Source: Gemmatimonadales bacterium (GTDB lineage: Bacteria > Gemmatimonadota > Gemmatimonadetes > Gemmatimonadales > GWC2-71-9). Taken from it: 47,734 nt of DNA. Below, one piece after another: positions 40,025 to 45,274 of this stretch; within the stretch, counting starts at the first letter, position 1, and every line of letters begins with the position of its first letter. The notes under the pieces are model-generated. The model was not told where the DNA came from. It was given only the letters and a program-made list of their open reading frames with translations, and made no database searches. The stretch spans positions 1 through 47,734 of the forward strand of contig JAICJD010000007.1 of assembly GCA_025928645.1 (NCBI GenBank), read 5' to 3'. The position numbers were made by a program, and so were the translations under genes.

Positions 40025-40531
40025 ATGACCGACGCCACCGCCACCCTCCTGCTCGTCGCCGCTTCGCTGGTCGGCCTCGCGCTCATTCCGCTCGGGCTGC
40101 CGGGCCTCTGGGTCATCGTGCTCGGCATCCTCGGCTACGGCTGGCTCACGGATTTCCGCACGGTGAGCGGCGGGTTCCTCGCTCTCGTGCTCGGGCTCGC
40201 TCTGGCGGGCGAGCTGCTGGAGAGCTGGATCGGATTCCGCTTCGCGCAGCGTTACGGCGGGTCGAGCCGCGCGGGGTGGGGCGCGCTGATCGGGGGGCTG
40301 ATCGGCGCGGTGGTGGGCGTGCCGGTGCCCATCGTGGGCTCGGTGATCGGCGGGTTCGCCGGCGCCTTCCTCGGCGCCGCGGTGTTCGAGTACTCGCTGG
40401 CCCGCCGGTCGGGCGCGGCGGCCCGGGCCGGGTGGGGAGCGGTGCTCGGCCGGGCCGCCGCGGCGGCCATCAAGCTCGGACTGGGCCTGGCAATGGCCGC
40501 GGCGGCGATCTGGCTGGCGGTGCGAGGCTGA
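40025..40531 (+). CDS. DUF456 family membrane protein
   Basis: A 168-residue hydrophobic protein of the DUF456 family. It has three or four membrane segments: residues about 8-40, 50-68, 88-125 (a glycine-rich GALIGGLIGAVVGVPVPIVG stretch) and 140-165. The family's conserved core is visible in LPGLW near residue 30 and in the GxxxG-rich central helix pair. Function is unknown. It is divergent from the SDR at 38936-39961 with 63 bases between starts. Just downstream, on the opposite strand, is the vestigial SDR start. Confidence 0.82.
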   Translation: MTDATATLLLVAASLVGLALIPLGLPGLWVIVLGILGYGWLTDFRTVSGGFLALVLGLALAGELLESWIGFRFAQRYGGSSRAGWGALIGGLIGAVVGVPVPIVGSVIGGFAGAFLGAAVFEYSLARRSGAAARAGWGAVLGRAAAAAIKLGLGLAMAAAAIWLAVRG

Positions 40532-41142: not shown

Positions 41143-43812
41143 TCACGGCTCGTCGCCGGCGGTCCGGATCCGCACCGTGCGCTCGAGCTCGTCCGCGTGC
41201 TGCAGCACCTTCCGCCGGAGGTCCAGCGGCAGCCCGGGGTGCTCCGCCAGCCAGCCGCGCACCGTCTCCAGCGCCGGCTGCCCCGTCTGGCCCCGCAGAA
41301 ACGCGGCGAGCCAGCTCTCGAGAAAGAAGATGCGGCGATGCGCCTGGATGAACGGCAGCGAATCCAGCGCCGGACGCAGGTATGGAAGCGTGAGCGTCTG
41401 CTGATCCAGGCTATTGAACGGGCCCAGGCTGCCTGAGGCCCACTGCTCGTTGAGCGACGAGTCGGCGAACCAGCGCGTGAAGTAGTCGCGCTTGGTGGCG
41501 GCGCTGGGCCGGGCCGCGGCGGCGACGAAGGCGCGGCGCCGTCCGTCCGCGGTCGTGTCGCGCCGCGACTGCTCGGCGTAGAGCCGGTCGGCGCCGGCCG
41601 CACCCAGCTCGAGCAGTCGGGTGACGATGTCCCAGCGGGTCGGATCGCGCAGCGGCTCGCCGGCCACCGAGTCGGCGGCGAGCAAGCCCTCGAGCCGGTG
41701 CACGCCGTCCGGGCTGGCGGCGAGCTCGATGAACGCGTCGATGCAGGCCTTGCGGAGGCCGTAGGGCCGAGCCGAATCTCCGGCTTCGCTCCAGAGGACG
41801 CGCTCGAGCGCGGGCTGAATCGCCGCACGGCGTTCGGGCGCGAGATAGGCCGCCGCGGCCCGCCCGAGCCGTGCCAGAAGCACGGGGACGATCTGCTCGT
41901 CGGTTTCCCCGGGCAGCTCGCGCAGCACCAGTCGCGCGAACCGGTCGGGTGGCAGCCGGCCGGCGCGAACCTGATCCCACAGGGCACCCCAGAGCATCGC
42001 GCGGAGGAGCCCATCCCGCACGCGGCCGAGTGCACCCGACTCGAGCGCGCGGACGCTCGCCGAGTCCAGCAGGAGGAGGTAGTAGCCGTAGTCGCCGGCG
42101 TTGGCGAAGACGTACTCAGGGGCGGGCCGGCCTGCCGCGGCGCGCACGACGGTCAGGGTGTCGCTGAGCTCGACGGGGATGCGCACCGGCGGCCGGTCGT
42201 GATAGGCGAGCAACACCTCGGTGCGCTCGGTCCACGGCCGGTCCGATGCGTCGATCGCTGGAGCCGCGCCGCCGAGCGCCGCGTCCAGCAGCAGGCGGGG
42301 CACCGCGGGCTTCTGCGCGAGCTCGAGGCGTGCGATCCGCCCCTCCCGCACCGACAGTCGCTGTTCCACGACCGGCATCCCCCCGCGCAGCATGAAGTCC
42401 CGCCCGAACCGGTCGAGCGGGCGCCCGGCCGCCGAGCCGATGGCGCCGAGCAGGTCGCGCCAGTCCGCGCTGCCATAGGCGTGCAGCCCGAGGAACCGGC
42501 GCACGCCCGACTGAAACGCCGAGTCGCCGACCAGATACTCGAGCTGCTTGAGCACCGACGGCGCCTTGTTGTACACGATCGCTCCGTAGTTGCTCTTCGC
42601 CTGGTCGAGATTGTCGAGTGCCTGCCAGAGCGGCTGAGTCCCCGGGGTCTGATCCACCGCATAGGCCGGCGGCTTGTTGCCCAGGTAGAAAGTCTTCCAG
42701 GCTTCAGCCTCGGGCTCGAGGTCGGCCAGGGCCTTGGTCGCCATGAAGGTGGCGAACCCCTCCTTGAGCCAGAGATCGTCGAACCAGCGCATGGTGACCA
42801 GGTCGCCGAACCACTGGTGCGCGACCTCGTGAAGGATGGTCGAGAAGCGCGCCAGGCGGCGGGGAAGGGTGGGCCGCTCGCGGAAGATGAACCCGTCCTC
42901 CGAGTAGAAGACGGCGCCCGGATGCTCCATGCCGCCGAACGGGAAGGCGGGCGCGAGCACGAAGTCGAACTTGCCGAACGGGTAGGGCCGGCCGAACCAG
43001 CGCTCCATCCACTGGAGCGCGCGGCCATTGAGCGCGAGCAGCGTGTCGAGATCGGCTTCGCCGGCGCGGGACCGCCGCACGTATGCCGTGATCGTTCGCC
43101 CCGCCACGGAGGCGCTCGCCCGTTGCCACGGCCCCGCGGCGAACGCGATGAGATAGGTGCTGATCGGGTGGGTCTCGGCGAAGCGGGTCGTGACCCGCCG
43201 GCCCCCGGTATTGGTCGATGCCGCTGCGCCATTGGAGACCACCGTCCAGCCCGCCGGCGCCGTCACCGCCAGCCGGACGCGCGCTTTGAGATCCGGCTGG
43301 TCGAAGCAGGGGAAGAGCTGGCTGGCGTCGGCCGGTACCAGCAGCGTATACAGGTAGTCCCGGTTGTCGGTGGGGTCGTGGCTCCGGATGATGCTCGCGC
43401 CGCTCGGCGCGACGTCCGCGATGAAGTCGAGCCGAACCAGGTTCTCACCCGGGCGGAGCAGGGCGGACGGAACGACGAGGTGCCCGTCTCGGGCAGCGTT
43501 CGCCGGCAGCGGACGGCCGTTCACCTCGGCGCTCACGAGCCGCCGCCCGCGGTAGTCCAGGATCGCGTCCCCCTGGTCGAGGCGGCGGAAGCGCACCGCC
43601 ACCCGCCCGATGGCGCTGTCGAGCGGGACCAGGTCGAGCGCCAGATCGTAGCGGACGTCTCGGAGCGTCCGCGCCCGGTGCCGGGCGAGCGCGTGACTGA
43701 CGCCCGGCGCGAGCAACGAGTCGCCCGCGGCGGCCGCCATGGCGGGGGCAGGCAGGAGGAGCGGCGCAAGCAGGAGGGCGGCAACGCGGCCTTGGGCCCA
43801 TATTTCCCGCAT
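41143..43812 (-). CDS. Exported M1-family zinc aminopeptidase
   Basis: An 889-residue metallopeptidase of family M1. Residues 1-26 form a signal peptide (MREIWAQGRVAALLLAPLLL, cleavage near AMA). The N-terminal beta domain is followed by the exopeptidase motif GGMEH. The zinc site is HEVAH (H328, E329, H332) with the third ligand E351 in WLKEGFATF, exactly the HExxH-x18-E spacing. A helical C-terminal domain (about 570-880) follows, as in ERAP/aminopeptidase N-like enzymes. It should trim N-terminal residues from peptides in the periplasm. The chosen ATG overlaps the start codon of the divergent methyltransferase-like gene; an in-frame ATG at 43830 would deepen that overlap. Confidence 0.9.
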   Translation of the reverse strand: MREIWAQGRVAALLLAPLLLPAPAMAAAAGDSLLAPGVSHALARHRARTLRDVRYDLALDLVPLDSAIGRVAVRFRRLDQGDAILDYRGRRLVSAEVNGRPLPANAARDGHLVVPSALLRPGENLVRLDFIADVAPSGASIIRSHDPTDNRDYLYTLLVPADASQLFPCFDQPDLKARVRLAVTAPAGWTVVSNGAAASTNTGGRRVTTRFAETHPISTYLIAFAAGPWQRASASVAGRTITAYVRRSRAGEADLDTLLALNGRALQWMERWFGRPYPFGKFDFVLAPAFPFGGMEHPGAVFYSEDGFIFRERPTLPRRLARFSTILHEVAHQWFGDLVTMRWFDDLWLKEGFATFMATKALADLEPEAEAWKTFYLGNKPPAYAVDQTPGTQPLWQALDNLDQAKSNYGAIVYNKAPSVLKQLEYLVGDSAFQSGVRRFLGLHAYGSADWRDLLGAIGSAAGRPLDRFGRDFMLRGGMPVVEQRLSVREGRIARLELAQKPAVPRLLLDAALGGAAPAIDASDRPWTERTEVLLAYHDRPPVRIPVELSDTLTVVRAAAGRPAPEYVFANAGDYGYYLLLLDSASVRALESGALGRVRDGLLRAMLWGALWDQVRAGRLPPDRFARLVLRELPGETDEQIVPVLLARLGRAAAAYLAPERRAAIQPALERVLWSEAGDSARPYGLRKACIDAFIELAASPDGVHRLEGLLAADSVAGEPLRDPTRWDIVTRLLELGAAGADRLYAEQSRRDTTADGRRRAFVAAAARPSAATKRDYFTRWFADSSLNEQWASGSLGPFNSLDQQTLTLPYLRPALDSLPFIQAHRRIFFLESWLAAFLRGQTGQPALETVRGWLAEHPGLPLDLRRKVLQHADELERTVRIRTAGDEP

Positions 43813-44389
43813 GACGACGATACACCTCATCGTAAGCCTCGCCATCCCGGCGCTCTGGCTGGTGTGGCTGGGATACTGGTGGTACAGCGCGCGGGACGTG
43901 AAAAGGACCCGACAGCGCGAGCCGTTCAGCTCGCAGATCCGCCATCGGGCCCCGATCATCGTGGGCGTCCTGCTGTTCGCGGCGCCCCGGCTCCTGCCCC
44001 CTGTGCTGAACCGGCGGTTCGTGCCGCCCGGTCCCGTGTTCCCCGTGCTCGGCACGGTCCTGCTCGCCTTCGGGCTCGGCATCTCCGTCTGGGCGCGGCG
44101 TCACCTGGGACGGAACTGGAGCGTGCACGTCGTCGTGAAGGAGGACCATGCCCTGGTGCGGACCGGGCCGTATCGCTTCGTGCGCCATCCCATCTACACG
44201 GGCATCCTGCTCGGCTTCCTCGGGATGGCGCTCGCGATCGGCCAGTGGCGCGCGCTCGCCGGACTTCTGTGCTTCGTCGTCTCCTTCGTGGTGAAGAGCC
44301 GCCTCGAGGAGGCCCGCATGCGCGAGACGTTCCCTGCCTACGAGCAGTATCGGCGCGACACCGCGGCGCTGATTCCCTTCGTGTACTAG
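43811..44389 (+). CDS. Isoprenylcysteine carboxyl methyltransferase-family membrane protein
   Basis: A 192-residue membrane protein of the ICMT/PEMT-like family. It has membrane segments near residues 5-25, 40-60, 70-90 and 130-155. The signature is intact: VRTGPYRFVRHPIYTGIL followed by SRLEEARMRETFPAYEQYRRDT, the SAM-binding and catalytic C-terminal motif of these methyltransferases. In bacteria the substrates are mostly unknown; methylation of lipids or small molecules is possible. The ATG at 43811 shares CATG with the M1 peptidase start on the other strand. The 3' end is nine bases from the convergent PP2C gene. Confidence 0.86.
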   Translation: MTTIHLIVSLAIPALWLVWLGYWWYSARDVKRTRQREPFSSQIRHRAPIIVGVLLFAAPRLLPPVLNRRFVPPGPVFPVLGTVLLAFGLGISVWARRHLGRNWSVHVVVKEDHALVRTGPYRFVRHPIYTGILLGFLGMALAIGQWRALAGLLCFVVSFVVKSRLEEARMRETFPAYEQYRRDTAALIPFVY

Positions 44390-44398
44390 GCGGGGCGG

Positions 44399-45274
44399 TC
44401 AGCCCTGCGGAACCGCCCGGCCCACGACGACCGTGATATTGTCGCTGCCGCCGCCGTCGAGCGCCTCCTGCAGCAGCGTCTCGCACGCCTGGCGCGCGGA
44501 GGTCATCGTGCGGAGCACGTCGCGGATCCGGTCATCCGAGACGTGGCGCGTGAGGCCGTCGCTGCAGAGCAGCAGCACGTGGCCCCAATCCATGTCGAAC
44601 CGGCTGATCTTCGGGTCGTTCTGGCTTCCGCCGATCGCGCTGGTGAGCGTATGGGCGAGACGCGTCCCCGCCGCATCCTCGGCCTTCATGACTCCCAGGT
44701 CGACCATGTCCTGCGCCATGGTCTGGTCGCGGCTGACCTGGGTCAGCTCCCCGCGGCGGAGCAGGTAGCAGCGGCTGTCGCCCACCTGGAGGAGATAGCC
44801 GTGCGGCCACACGCCGAGGTACAGGGTGAGCGTCGTGGCCATGCCGCGGTAGTCGAAGTTCTCGTCGCCCCGGCGCAGCAGCTCGGCGTGACACTCCCGG
44901 GCGCCGGCGCGGAGGGCCTCCTCGAGGTCGGCGCCGTCCCCGTCGCCCGAGCCGTAGTAGCAGCGCATGGTGCGGGTGACGTACTTGGTGACGGCCTGGA
45001 GCGCGAGCCGACTCGCGGTCTCGCCCTGGGCGGCGCCGCCAACGCCGTCCGCCACCATGGCGATCGAGGCGAGCCGCTCCGGCTGCTCCCTGATGCCGTC
45101 GACGTCGGGAATGCTGGAGAGGCGTATGACGAGCTGCTTCCGCAGCGAGCAGAGCAGAAAGTGGTCCTGGTTGTCCTTTCGCACCTTGCCCGGGTGAGTG
45201 ACGCCGTGGGCGTCGATCTCCTCTTCCCGGGGCTTGCGGGCGGGCGCGGCGAGGGCGGCAGACTTGGGGGACAT
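44399..45274 (-). CDS. PP2C-type Ser/Thr protein phosphatase
   Basis: A 291-residue cytoplasmic phosphatase of the PPM/PP2C family, expected to remove phosphate from Ser/Thr targets of Hanks-type kinases with two Mn/Mg ions. Motifs in order are VRKDNQDHF (D34, D37), MVADGVGGAAQGE (D76, G77), GMATTLT, VGDSRCYLLR, LLCSDGLTRHV and GGSDNITVVV, all present, so it should be active. Start ATG at 45274 with AGGAG six bases upstream. Residues 1-20 are a short Ala/Lys-rich lead. The Ser/Thr kinase at 28454-30055 is the only kinase of that type in the window, but nothing in the sequence links the two. Confidence 0.9.
   Translation of the reverse strand: MSPKSAALAAPARKPREEEIDAHGVTHPGKVRKDNQDHFLLCSLRKQLVIRLSSIPDVDGIREQPERLASIAMVADGVGGAAQGETASRLALQAVTKYVTRTMRCYYGSGDGDGADLEEALRAGARECHAELLRRGDENFDYRGMATTLTLYLGVWPHGYLLQVGDSRCYLLRRGELTQVSRDQTMAQDMVDLGVMKAEDAAGTRLAHTLTSAIGGSQNDPKISRFDMDWGHVLLLCSDGLTRHVSDDRIRDVLRTMTSARQACETLLQEALDGGGSDNITVVVGRAVPQG

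Follow-up and report, generated by a model that had tools for sequence, protein, structure and literature searches.

On a 47,734-nucleotide (nt) stretch of DNA from a Gemmatimonadales bacterium (JAICJD010000007.1, positions 1 to 47,734; hereafter the window, which is contig C260 of a 3.89-megabase, 294-contig draft genome), two divergent genes overlap head-to-head by 2 nt on opposite strands. One encodes an M1-family aminopeptidase and the other a PEMT/ICMT-family membrane methyltransferase. Both start codons are contained in the palindrome CATG at positions 43810-43813, with the peptidase ATG at 43812-43810 on the minus strand and the methyltransferase ATG at 43811-43813 on the plus strand. 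We favour, with somewhat better than even confidence, a reading in which this is a real minimal divergent overlap created by a lineage-specific juxtaposition, with crossed promoters reciprocally embedded in the first codons of the two genes.

43810..43813, no strand: CATG containing both start codons (direct reading; both starts were picked by an overlap-penalised gene caller)
41143..43812, minus strand: M1-family aminopeptidase, 889 amino acids (Pfam Peptidase_M1, ERAP1_C and Peptidase_M1_N)
43811..44389, plus strand: PEMT/ICMT-family membrane methyltransferase, 192 amino acids (Pfam PEMT and ICMT)

A first-pass annotation of this DNA had described two divergent genes sharing their start codons through CATG; its coordinates proved exact, and both open reading frames match known families. 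The peptidase matches Peptidase_M1 (E-value 7.8e-52), ERAP1_C (2.8e-30) and Peptidase_M1_N (2.4e-14), and scores 561.7 bits with TIGR02412, under the cut-off of 591.2. Its N-terminus resembles a signal peptide by eye, and its nearest named relatives are from Gemmatimonadota. The methyltransferase matches PEMT (63.4 bits, 3e-17) and ICMT (52.9 bits, 5e-14), and its NF040696 score of 86.3 bits is under the cut-off of 160. The guanine-plus-cytosine (GC) content is 66-75% across the window in 2-kilobase steps.

A head-to-head overlap is rare, the CATG is not

Genes were called in 81 sequences of this genome (loci L142-L221 plus the window; 888,238 bases, 757 genes) with a simple in-house dynamic-programming caller that penalises overlaps, a property that bears on the overlap counts. 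It replaced a first caller without overlap handling, which had stretched the peptidase as far as 43959 and missed the methyltransferase. Scores in the genome's own codon model were 332.6 for the peptidase and 78.6 for the methyltransferase. Among 78 adjacent divergent pairs in the sampled genome, the pair described here is the only one that overlaps, the next gaps being 9, 20 and 33 nt. The smallest gap in 60 divergent pairs from other genomes' peptidase loci is 24 nt, and no divergent overlap (0/36) was found in 55 peptidase loci titled Gemmatimonadota.

The palindrome by itself is no signal. A C precedes 209 of the 409 ATG starts in the sample, thus creating an opposing ATG by default, and 52 of those 209 CATG starts face an opposing frame of 100 codons or more, again by default. 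What is rare is the head-to-head overlap of two true genes. Published surveys concur that divergent overlaps are rare: the available text of PMC2174442 counts 331 of them (58 species) against 12,737 codirectional and 1,890 convergent overlaps, and that of PMC2478687 counts 457 among 42,055 overlaps, where the 75 divergent ones that exceed 60 bp were all judged to be start misannotations. A literature search by title returned no paper on divergent genes sharing start codons, and the available portions of PMC2174442, PMC2478687 and PMC3848588 contain no CATG case.

Position of the two start codons

The next in-frame ATG of the peptidase is codon 25, and its use would delete nearly the whole apparent signal peptide (by eye); the next in-frame start of the methyltransferase (ATG, GTG or TTG) is a GTG at codon 18, within the first hydrophobic stretch. 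Homologues of the methyltransferase start near the residue encoded at 43811, two codons later in L003 (a 60% relative), three in L223 and four in L224, while the start is ambiguous in L226 and L227. Of 91 peptidase homologues, 22 offer just one plausible start, placed 21-50 amino acids ahead of a conserved GVS motif; the start at 43812 gives 36 amino acids. The live alternative lies upstream:

43828..43830, minus strand: alternative peptidase ATG, adding MRCIVV, with GAGG at 43837-43840, 6 nt ahead
43823..43828, minus strand: Shine-Dalgarno (SD)-like GAGGTG, its end 10 nt ahead of the ATG at 43812 (direct reading)

GAGG at a spacing of 6 is favoured in this genome (19/715 starts; 4/120 unambiguous starts), and GAGGTG at 10 nt is a rare, unfavoured spacing (2/715). 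Use of the ATG at 43830 would give 42 amino acids to GVS and a 20-nt overlap. The overlap is not attributable to a start misannotation, because the methyltransferase start agrees with homologues, the peptidase start at 43812 falls inside the homologue range, and the alternative at 43830 would only enlarge the overlap. A downstream start leaving a normal gap, which the first-pass annotation had named as the finding that would undo the shared CATG, was seen for neither gene.

A putative leaderless class of genes in Gemmatimonadota

According to the available text of PMC3160421, TANNNT about 12 nt before the start marks leaderless bacterial genes; Gemmatimonadota go unmentioned in its main text. 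In the sampled genome, TANNNT peaks where its first T lies 12 nt ahead of the start, in 22/715 starts, compared with 0-9 at each other distance. The peak is stronger where the upstream gap exceeds 60 nt (17/364), and the motif stands at 12 nt in 7 of 120 starts without a nearby alternative start. The peak recurs in those of loci L062-L141 that come from other Gemmatimonadota (55 of 80), where 6 and 5 of 217 starts carry the motif at 12 and 11 nt, respectively. By the PMC3160421 criterion, the Gemmatimonadota peak marks putative leaderless genes.

A mixture model of gene-start upstream regions, seeded with TATAAT and trained on the genome's own starts, placed about 8% of starts in a leaderless class with the motif TAnnTT and a commonest distance of 12. 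In the 51 best leaderless cases, T, T and G are raised at -23, -22 and -21 before the -10 (17, 17 and 26 of 51). These bases sit where a -35 would, a sign that the motifs are promoters. For the class Gemmatimonadetes, the available text of PMC10783764 reports an SD in 22% of mRNAs, with the SD consensus AGGAGGUGA. An open-access literature search on Gemmatimonas, transcription start sites and leaderless found no paper.

Candidate promoters inside the opposing genes

The -10-like elements at the junction are as follows:

43799..43804, plus strand: predicted methyltransferase -10 CATATT, 12 nt before the ATG, within peptidase codons 3-5 (GAA ATA TGG)
43817..43822, minus strand: candidate peptidase -10 TATCGT, 10 nt before the ATG, in methyltransferase codons 3-4 (ACG ATA), 5.9 bits
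43829..43834, minus strand: candidate peptidase -10 TACGAT, 22 nt before the ATG, in methyltransferase codons 7-8 (ATC GTA), 5.4 bits

When the model was trained without either gene of the pair, the methyltransferase received a leaderless posterior of 0.95 (rank 19/714). Of 713 other starts, 18 scored as well as its -10 or better, as did 11 of 181,440 positions on the strand opposite the opening 300 nt of genes. No SD was seen by eye within 20 nt upstream of its ATG. With a -10 about 12 nt before the start and no SD, the methyltransferase has the features of the leaderless type, and its mRNA is probably leaderless.

On the minus strand, TATCGT is the best -10-like site within the whole methyltransferase gene and TACGAT the second best, and these two best sites are also the nearest to the peptidase. 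The distance of 10 nt is not favoured in the genome. TATCGT would place the RNA start at or within the peptidase ATG, and TACGAT would give a leader of about 10 nt. The peptidase itself does not fit the leaderless type: its posterior in the same model is 0.016 (rank 117/714), the candidate elements lie 10 and 22 nt from the ATG, and GAGGTG is present. On our best reading, the peptidase mRNA is leaderless or short-leadered, or the protein starts 18 nt upstream. Consequently only half of the earlier suggestion that each mRNA may be leaderless survives, that for the methyltransferase, which is well supported; the peptidase, with its low posterior and SD-like sequences, does not bear it out. The accompanying proposal that each promoter must lie inside the other gene holds if the starts are right, and -10-like elements were indeed found there on both strands.

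Rare codons coincide with the candidate -10 elements

43801..43803, minus strand: the only ATA of the peptidase (codon 4), core of the methyltransferase -10 CATATT
43820..43822, plus strand: the only ATA of the methyltransferase (codon 4), completing the candidate peptidase -10 TATCGT

Each gene has a single ATA, at codon 4 in both cases, and each lies in a -10-like element of the other gene; the only GTA of the methyltransferase (codon 8) likewise completes TACGAT. In 755 other genes, ATA accounts for 76 of 247,420 codons and for 2 of 6,795 at codon positions 2-10, where GTA accounts for 22 of 6,795. ATA within codons 2-10 is found in 2 of these 755 genes, which gives about 7e-6 for both genes of the pair if independent. 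The 60% methyltransferase relative in genome G008 has neither ATA nor GTA in its first 12 codons. The double ATA anomaly lends strong support, short of proof, to the presence of embedded promoters.

A pairing seen only in this genome

The pair was sought from both sides. The peptidase-based search covered 61 genomes (own included), 10 genomes of the genus, and genome contigs, the last as the best 80 of 247 loci, so that near records may have been left out of those 80. The methyltransferase-based search covered 61, 102 and 394 genomes, own included, the 394 drawn evenly from a larger group. Loci were retained for the best matches only, with flanks of about 1.5-3 kilobases or less, some ended by contig ends; this length is enough to show a head-to-head neighbour in most loci.

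Both genes co-occur in 3 of 141 loci, and all three are the window's own locus. Flanking DNA held a peptidase match in none of the 12 methyltransferase loci inspected closely (12 of 36), and the remaining methyltransferase loci from the 61-genome search were covered by the 141-locus co-occurrence check. By the measure of co-occurrence in the loci examined, the two genes do not form a conserved regulatory pair. At an E-value of 1e-60 or below, the peptidase is present in 1 of 10 genus genomes, the window's own, and homologues up to 72% identical are found in other genera and families, with about 50-53% identity in Sphingomonas. The peptidase may therefore have moved horizontally or been lost repeatedly. 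Close homologues of the methyltransferase are scarce, at 3/102 family genomes (1e-22) and 7/394 class genomes (1e-30), own included, and the 60% identical homologue in G008 stands without the overlap. Conservation of the CATG head-to-head overlap, which the first-pass annotation had put forward as a check, thus fails: the pair is absent from the relatives examined. Within the reach of these searches the pairing belongs to this genome alone, a result that speaks against selection having long coupled the two enzymes.

Two observations concern the neighbours of the pair. A DUF456 membrane protein is encoded near the peptidase both in the window (40025-40531) and in locus L074 (about 2300-2764, 47% identical), in different orientations; in L074 the gene lies divergently upstream of the peptidase. 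The difference in orientation is suggestive of an inversion in the history of the locus. On the other side, a PP2C-family phosphatase gene (44399-45274) is convergent with the methyltransferase, and 9 nt separate the stop ends.

A model of crossed promoters and the evidence for and against it

In the model that we favour, two unrelated genes would have been brought head-to-head in this lineage and would now share the CATG. The rightward promoter would be the CATATT in peptidase codons 3-5, with RNA starting from or beside the A of the methyltransferase ATG to give a leaderless mRNA. The leftward promoter, TATCGT or TACGAT, would lie within methyltransferase codons 1-8 and would yield, for the peptidase start codon in the CATG, an mRNA that is leaderless or has a leader of about 10 nt. 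Each -10 would have introduced rare AT-rich codons (ATA, GTA) into its host gene. The candidate -10s point towards one another and enclose the predicted start sites, such that both promoters would occupy the same DNA. On steric grounds two polymerases would be unable to bind together, each would transcribe through the promoter of the other, and the two mRNAs would overlap by only some 0-12 nt. Any coupling would accordingly be through promoter competition, strong only if one side were strongly activated, and not through a long antisense RNA.

A more ambitious version treats the junction as a reciprocal promoter-in-codon module, in which the first 8 or so codons of each gene encode both an N-terminus and the opposing -10, both mRNAs begin at or beside the CATG, one polymerase excludes the other, and the direction of transcription is chosen at one site of about 40 bp. 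We put this version forward tentatively, as possible but rather doubtful. As to a face-to-face geometry, a strong -10 was seen on one strand and two weak candidates on the other.

Mutual exclusion from crossed promoters is plausible. The earlier assertion that coordinate or mutually exclusive expression follows naturally from the overlap is nevertheless unsupported in that form. In the available text of PMC12825309, five E. coli bidirectional promoters were tested, all had basal transcription too low for competition, and repression appeared only when one direction was substantially activated. Mutual exclusion is accordingly a possibility here and not a consequence.

Several observations weigh against crossed embedded promoters. 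There is no -35-like hexamer: a consensus sigma-70 scan of 43500-44150 returned 0 promoters, after which the genome-trained model was used, and the methyltransferase has GGG where that model shows a raised TTG. Scores of the methyltransferase's grade occur at 10/1,372 positions 18-19 nt upstream of starts and 61/13,720 at 20-39 nt (0.4-0.7%), compared with 0 to 0.3% of positions farther upstream. False positives of the model are substantial, since shifted controls gave 13-21 of 715 with a posterior above 0.5 compared with 55 real starts. On the peptidase side, the leaderless posterior is low, the -10 candidates reach no more than 5.4-5.9 bits, the ATG at 43830 has a better-spaced SD than that at 43812, and L033, the closest peptidase homologue, has 43 amino acids from its only plausible start to GVS, nearer to 42 than to 36. 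The ATA argument was noticed post hoc, and local AT-richness of any cause would also yield ATA. Finally, the strict symmetric pattern of two leaderless -10s around one CATG, which the window pair itself does not match owing to its deviating leftward candidates, is not enriched: of 295 class genomes, 10 hold it, at 11 places in all, and 16 hold the reversed-pattern control, at 17 places. A wider-spaced control pattern was present in 49 of 295 genomes, a rough comparison because its codon phase differs. There is no sign of a recurring device in the class.

Alternative explanations

The strongest alternative is asymmetric. The methyltransferase would be leaderless at the CATG, whereas the peptidase would be SD-led from the ATG at 43830, with a promoter deeper in the methyltransferase, a 20-nt overlap and a leader antisense to the methyltransferase mRNA. 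The favoured GAGG spacing, the failure of the peptidase in the leaderless model, and the 42 amino acids to GVS, which fall inside the 21-50 range of the 22 homologues with a unique start and near the 43 found in L033, are all consistent with it. However, the 36 amino acids from 43812 are nearer the middle of the homologue range, RNA made from either -10 candidate would be expected to start downstream of the ATG at 43830, and the next -10-like sites deeper in the methyltransferase are no better, with 4.5 bits at 95 nt and 3.4 bits at 384 nt. We judge this alternative unlikely, though it is the most serious competitor.

Less probable still is a neutral accident, in which a rearrangement joined the genes, the nearest usable ATGs coincided, and weak expression comes from whatever promoter is at hand. 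In favour of such an origin, the pair was not found in the relatives examined; half of ATG starts are CATG by default, and the available texts of PMC2174442 and PMC2478687 show divergent overlaps to be known and rare. A bare accident would not be expected to produce a -10 at the exact leaderless distance together with the double ATA. A neutral origin may also be compatible with the crossed-promoter model, as the two differ on whether functional promoters are embedded.

An assembly artefact, with the contig joining two unrelated fragments at this point, is very improbable: the draft has 294 contigs and the genes are neighbours in no relative examined, but both genes are complete, both score high in the genome's codon model, their starts lie within 2 nt, their N-termini are consistent with homologues, and a random join would hardly hit two start codons. 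The least probable alternative is a single symmetric -10 driving both genes, as in the bidirectional promoters of Warman and Grainger, for which the available text of PMC12825309 describes one shared -10, with start sites either side of it or within it. That class typically has its divergent start sites near one another, but the separate candidates here face each other with start sites between them, unlike the geometry in that text. A reverse reading of CATATT would place the RNA start beyond the peptidase ATG, within the peptidase gene itself, and the candidates are 18 or 30 nt apart centre to centre; a shared -10 was rejected on this geometry.

Comparison with known systems

In face-to-face divergent promoters of the argECBH and bio operon type, the promoters point at each other and each RNA crosses the other promoter, and these promoters lie in a control region with operators. 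The candidate promoters described here differ in lying inside the partner's coding sequence, with no operator known. An excludon has a long antisense leader over a divergent neighbour; among the readings considered, the asymmetric alternative alone predicts a version of this, and a short one.

The divergent overlapping pairs in the available texts of PMC2174442 and PMC2478687 resemble this pair in that 5′ ends overlap on opposite strands; the present case is of the 2-nt form, and homologues back its start positions. The available text of PMC5333194 describes EcoRV and CfrBI, in which overlapping divergent promoters couple two genes. These systems and the bidirectional promoters of PMC12825309, as far as the available texts go, share with the crossed-promoter model overlapping sites for RNA polymerase, only one of which can be filled at a time. 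The EcoRV elements are intergenic and the bidirectional promoters share a -10, whereas the predicted start sites here are crossed and lie in coding DNA. The leaderless bacterial genes in the available text of PMC3160421 also have TANNNT about 12 nt before the start, but in this case the -10 is inside the opposing gene.

Divergent overlap is an already known, rare kind of gene arrangement, and what is fresh in this case is the pair of reciprocal promoter-in-codon traces. The analysis also yielded evidence, at the sequence level, for leaderless mRNAs in Gemmatimonadota. Rare codons that appear out of place are suggested as a flag for promoters hidden inside genes and, if the reciprocal module is true, embedded promoters in GC-rich genomes could be searched for by rare ATA and GTA codons at the extreme 5′ end of genes. 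Should the two embedded promoters both function, the region would be very compact, with two N-termini, two starts and two -10s in about 40 bp, and would offer a clean test of an either-or choice made by polymerase competition at crossed promoters.

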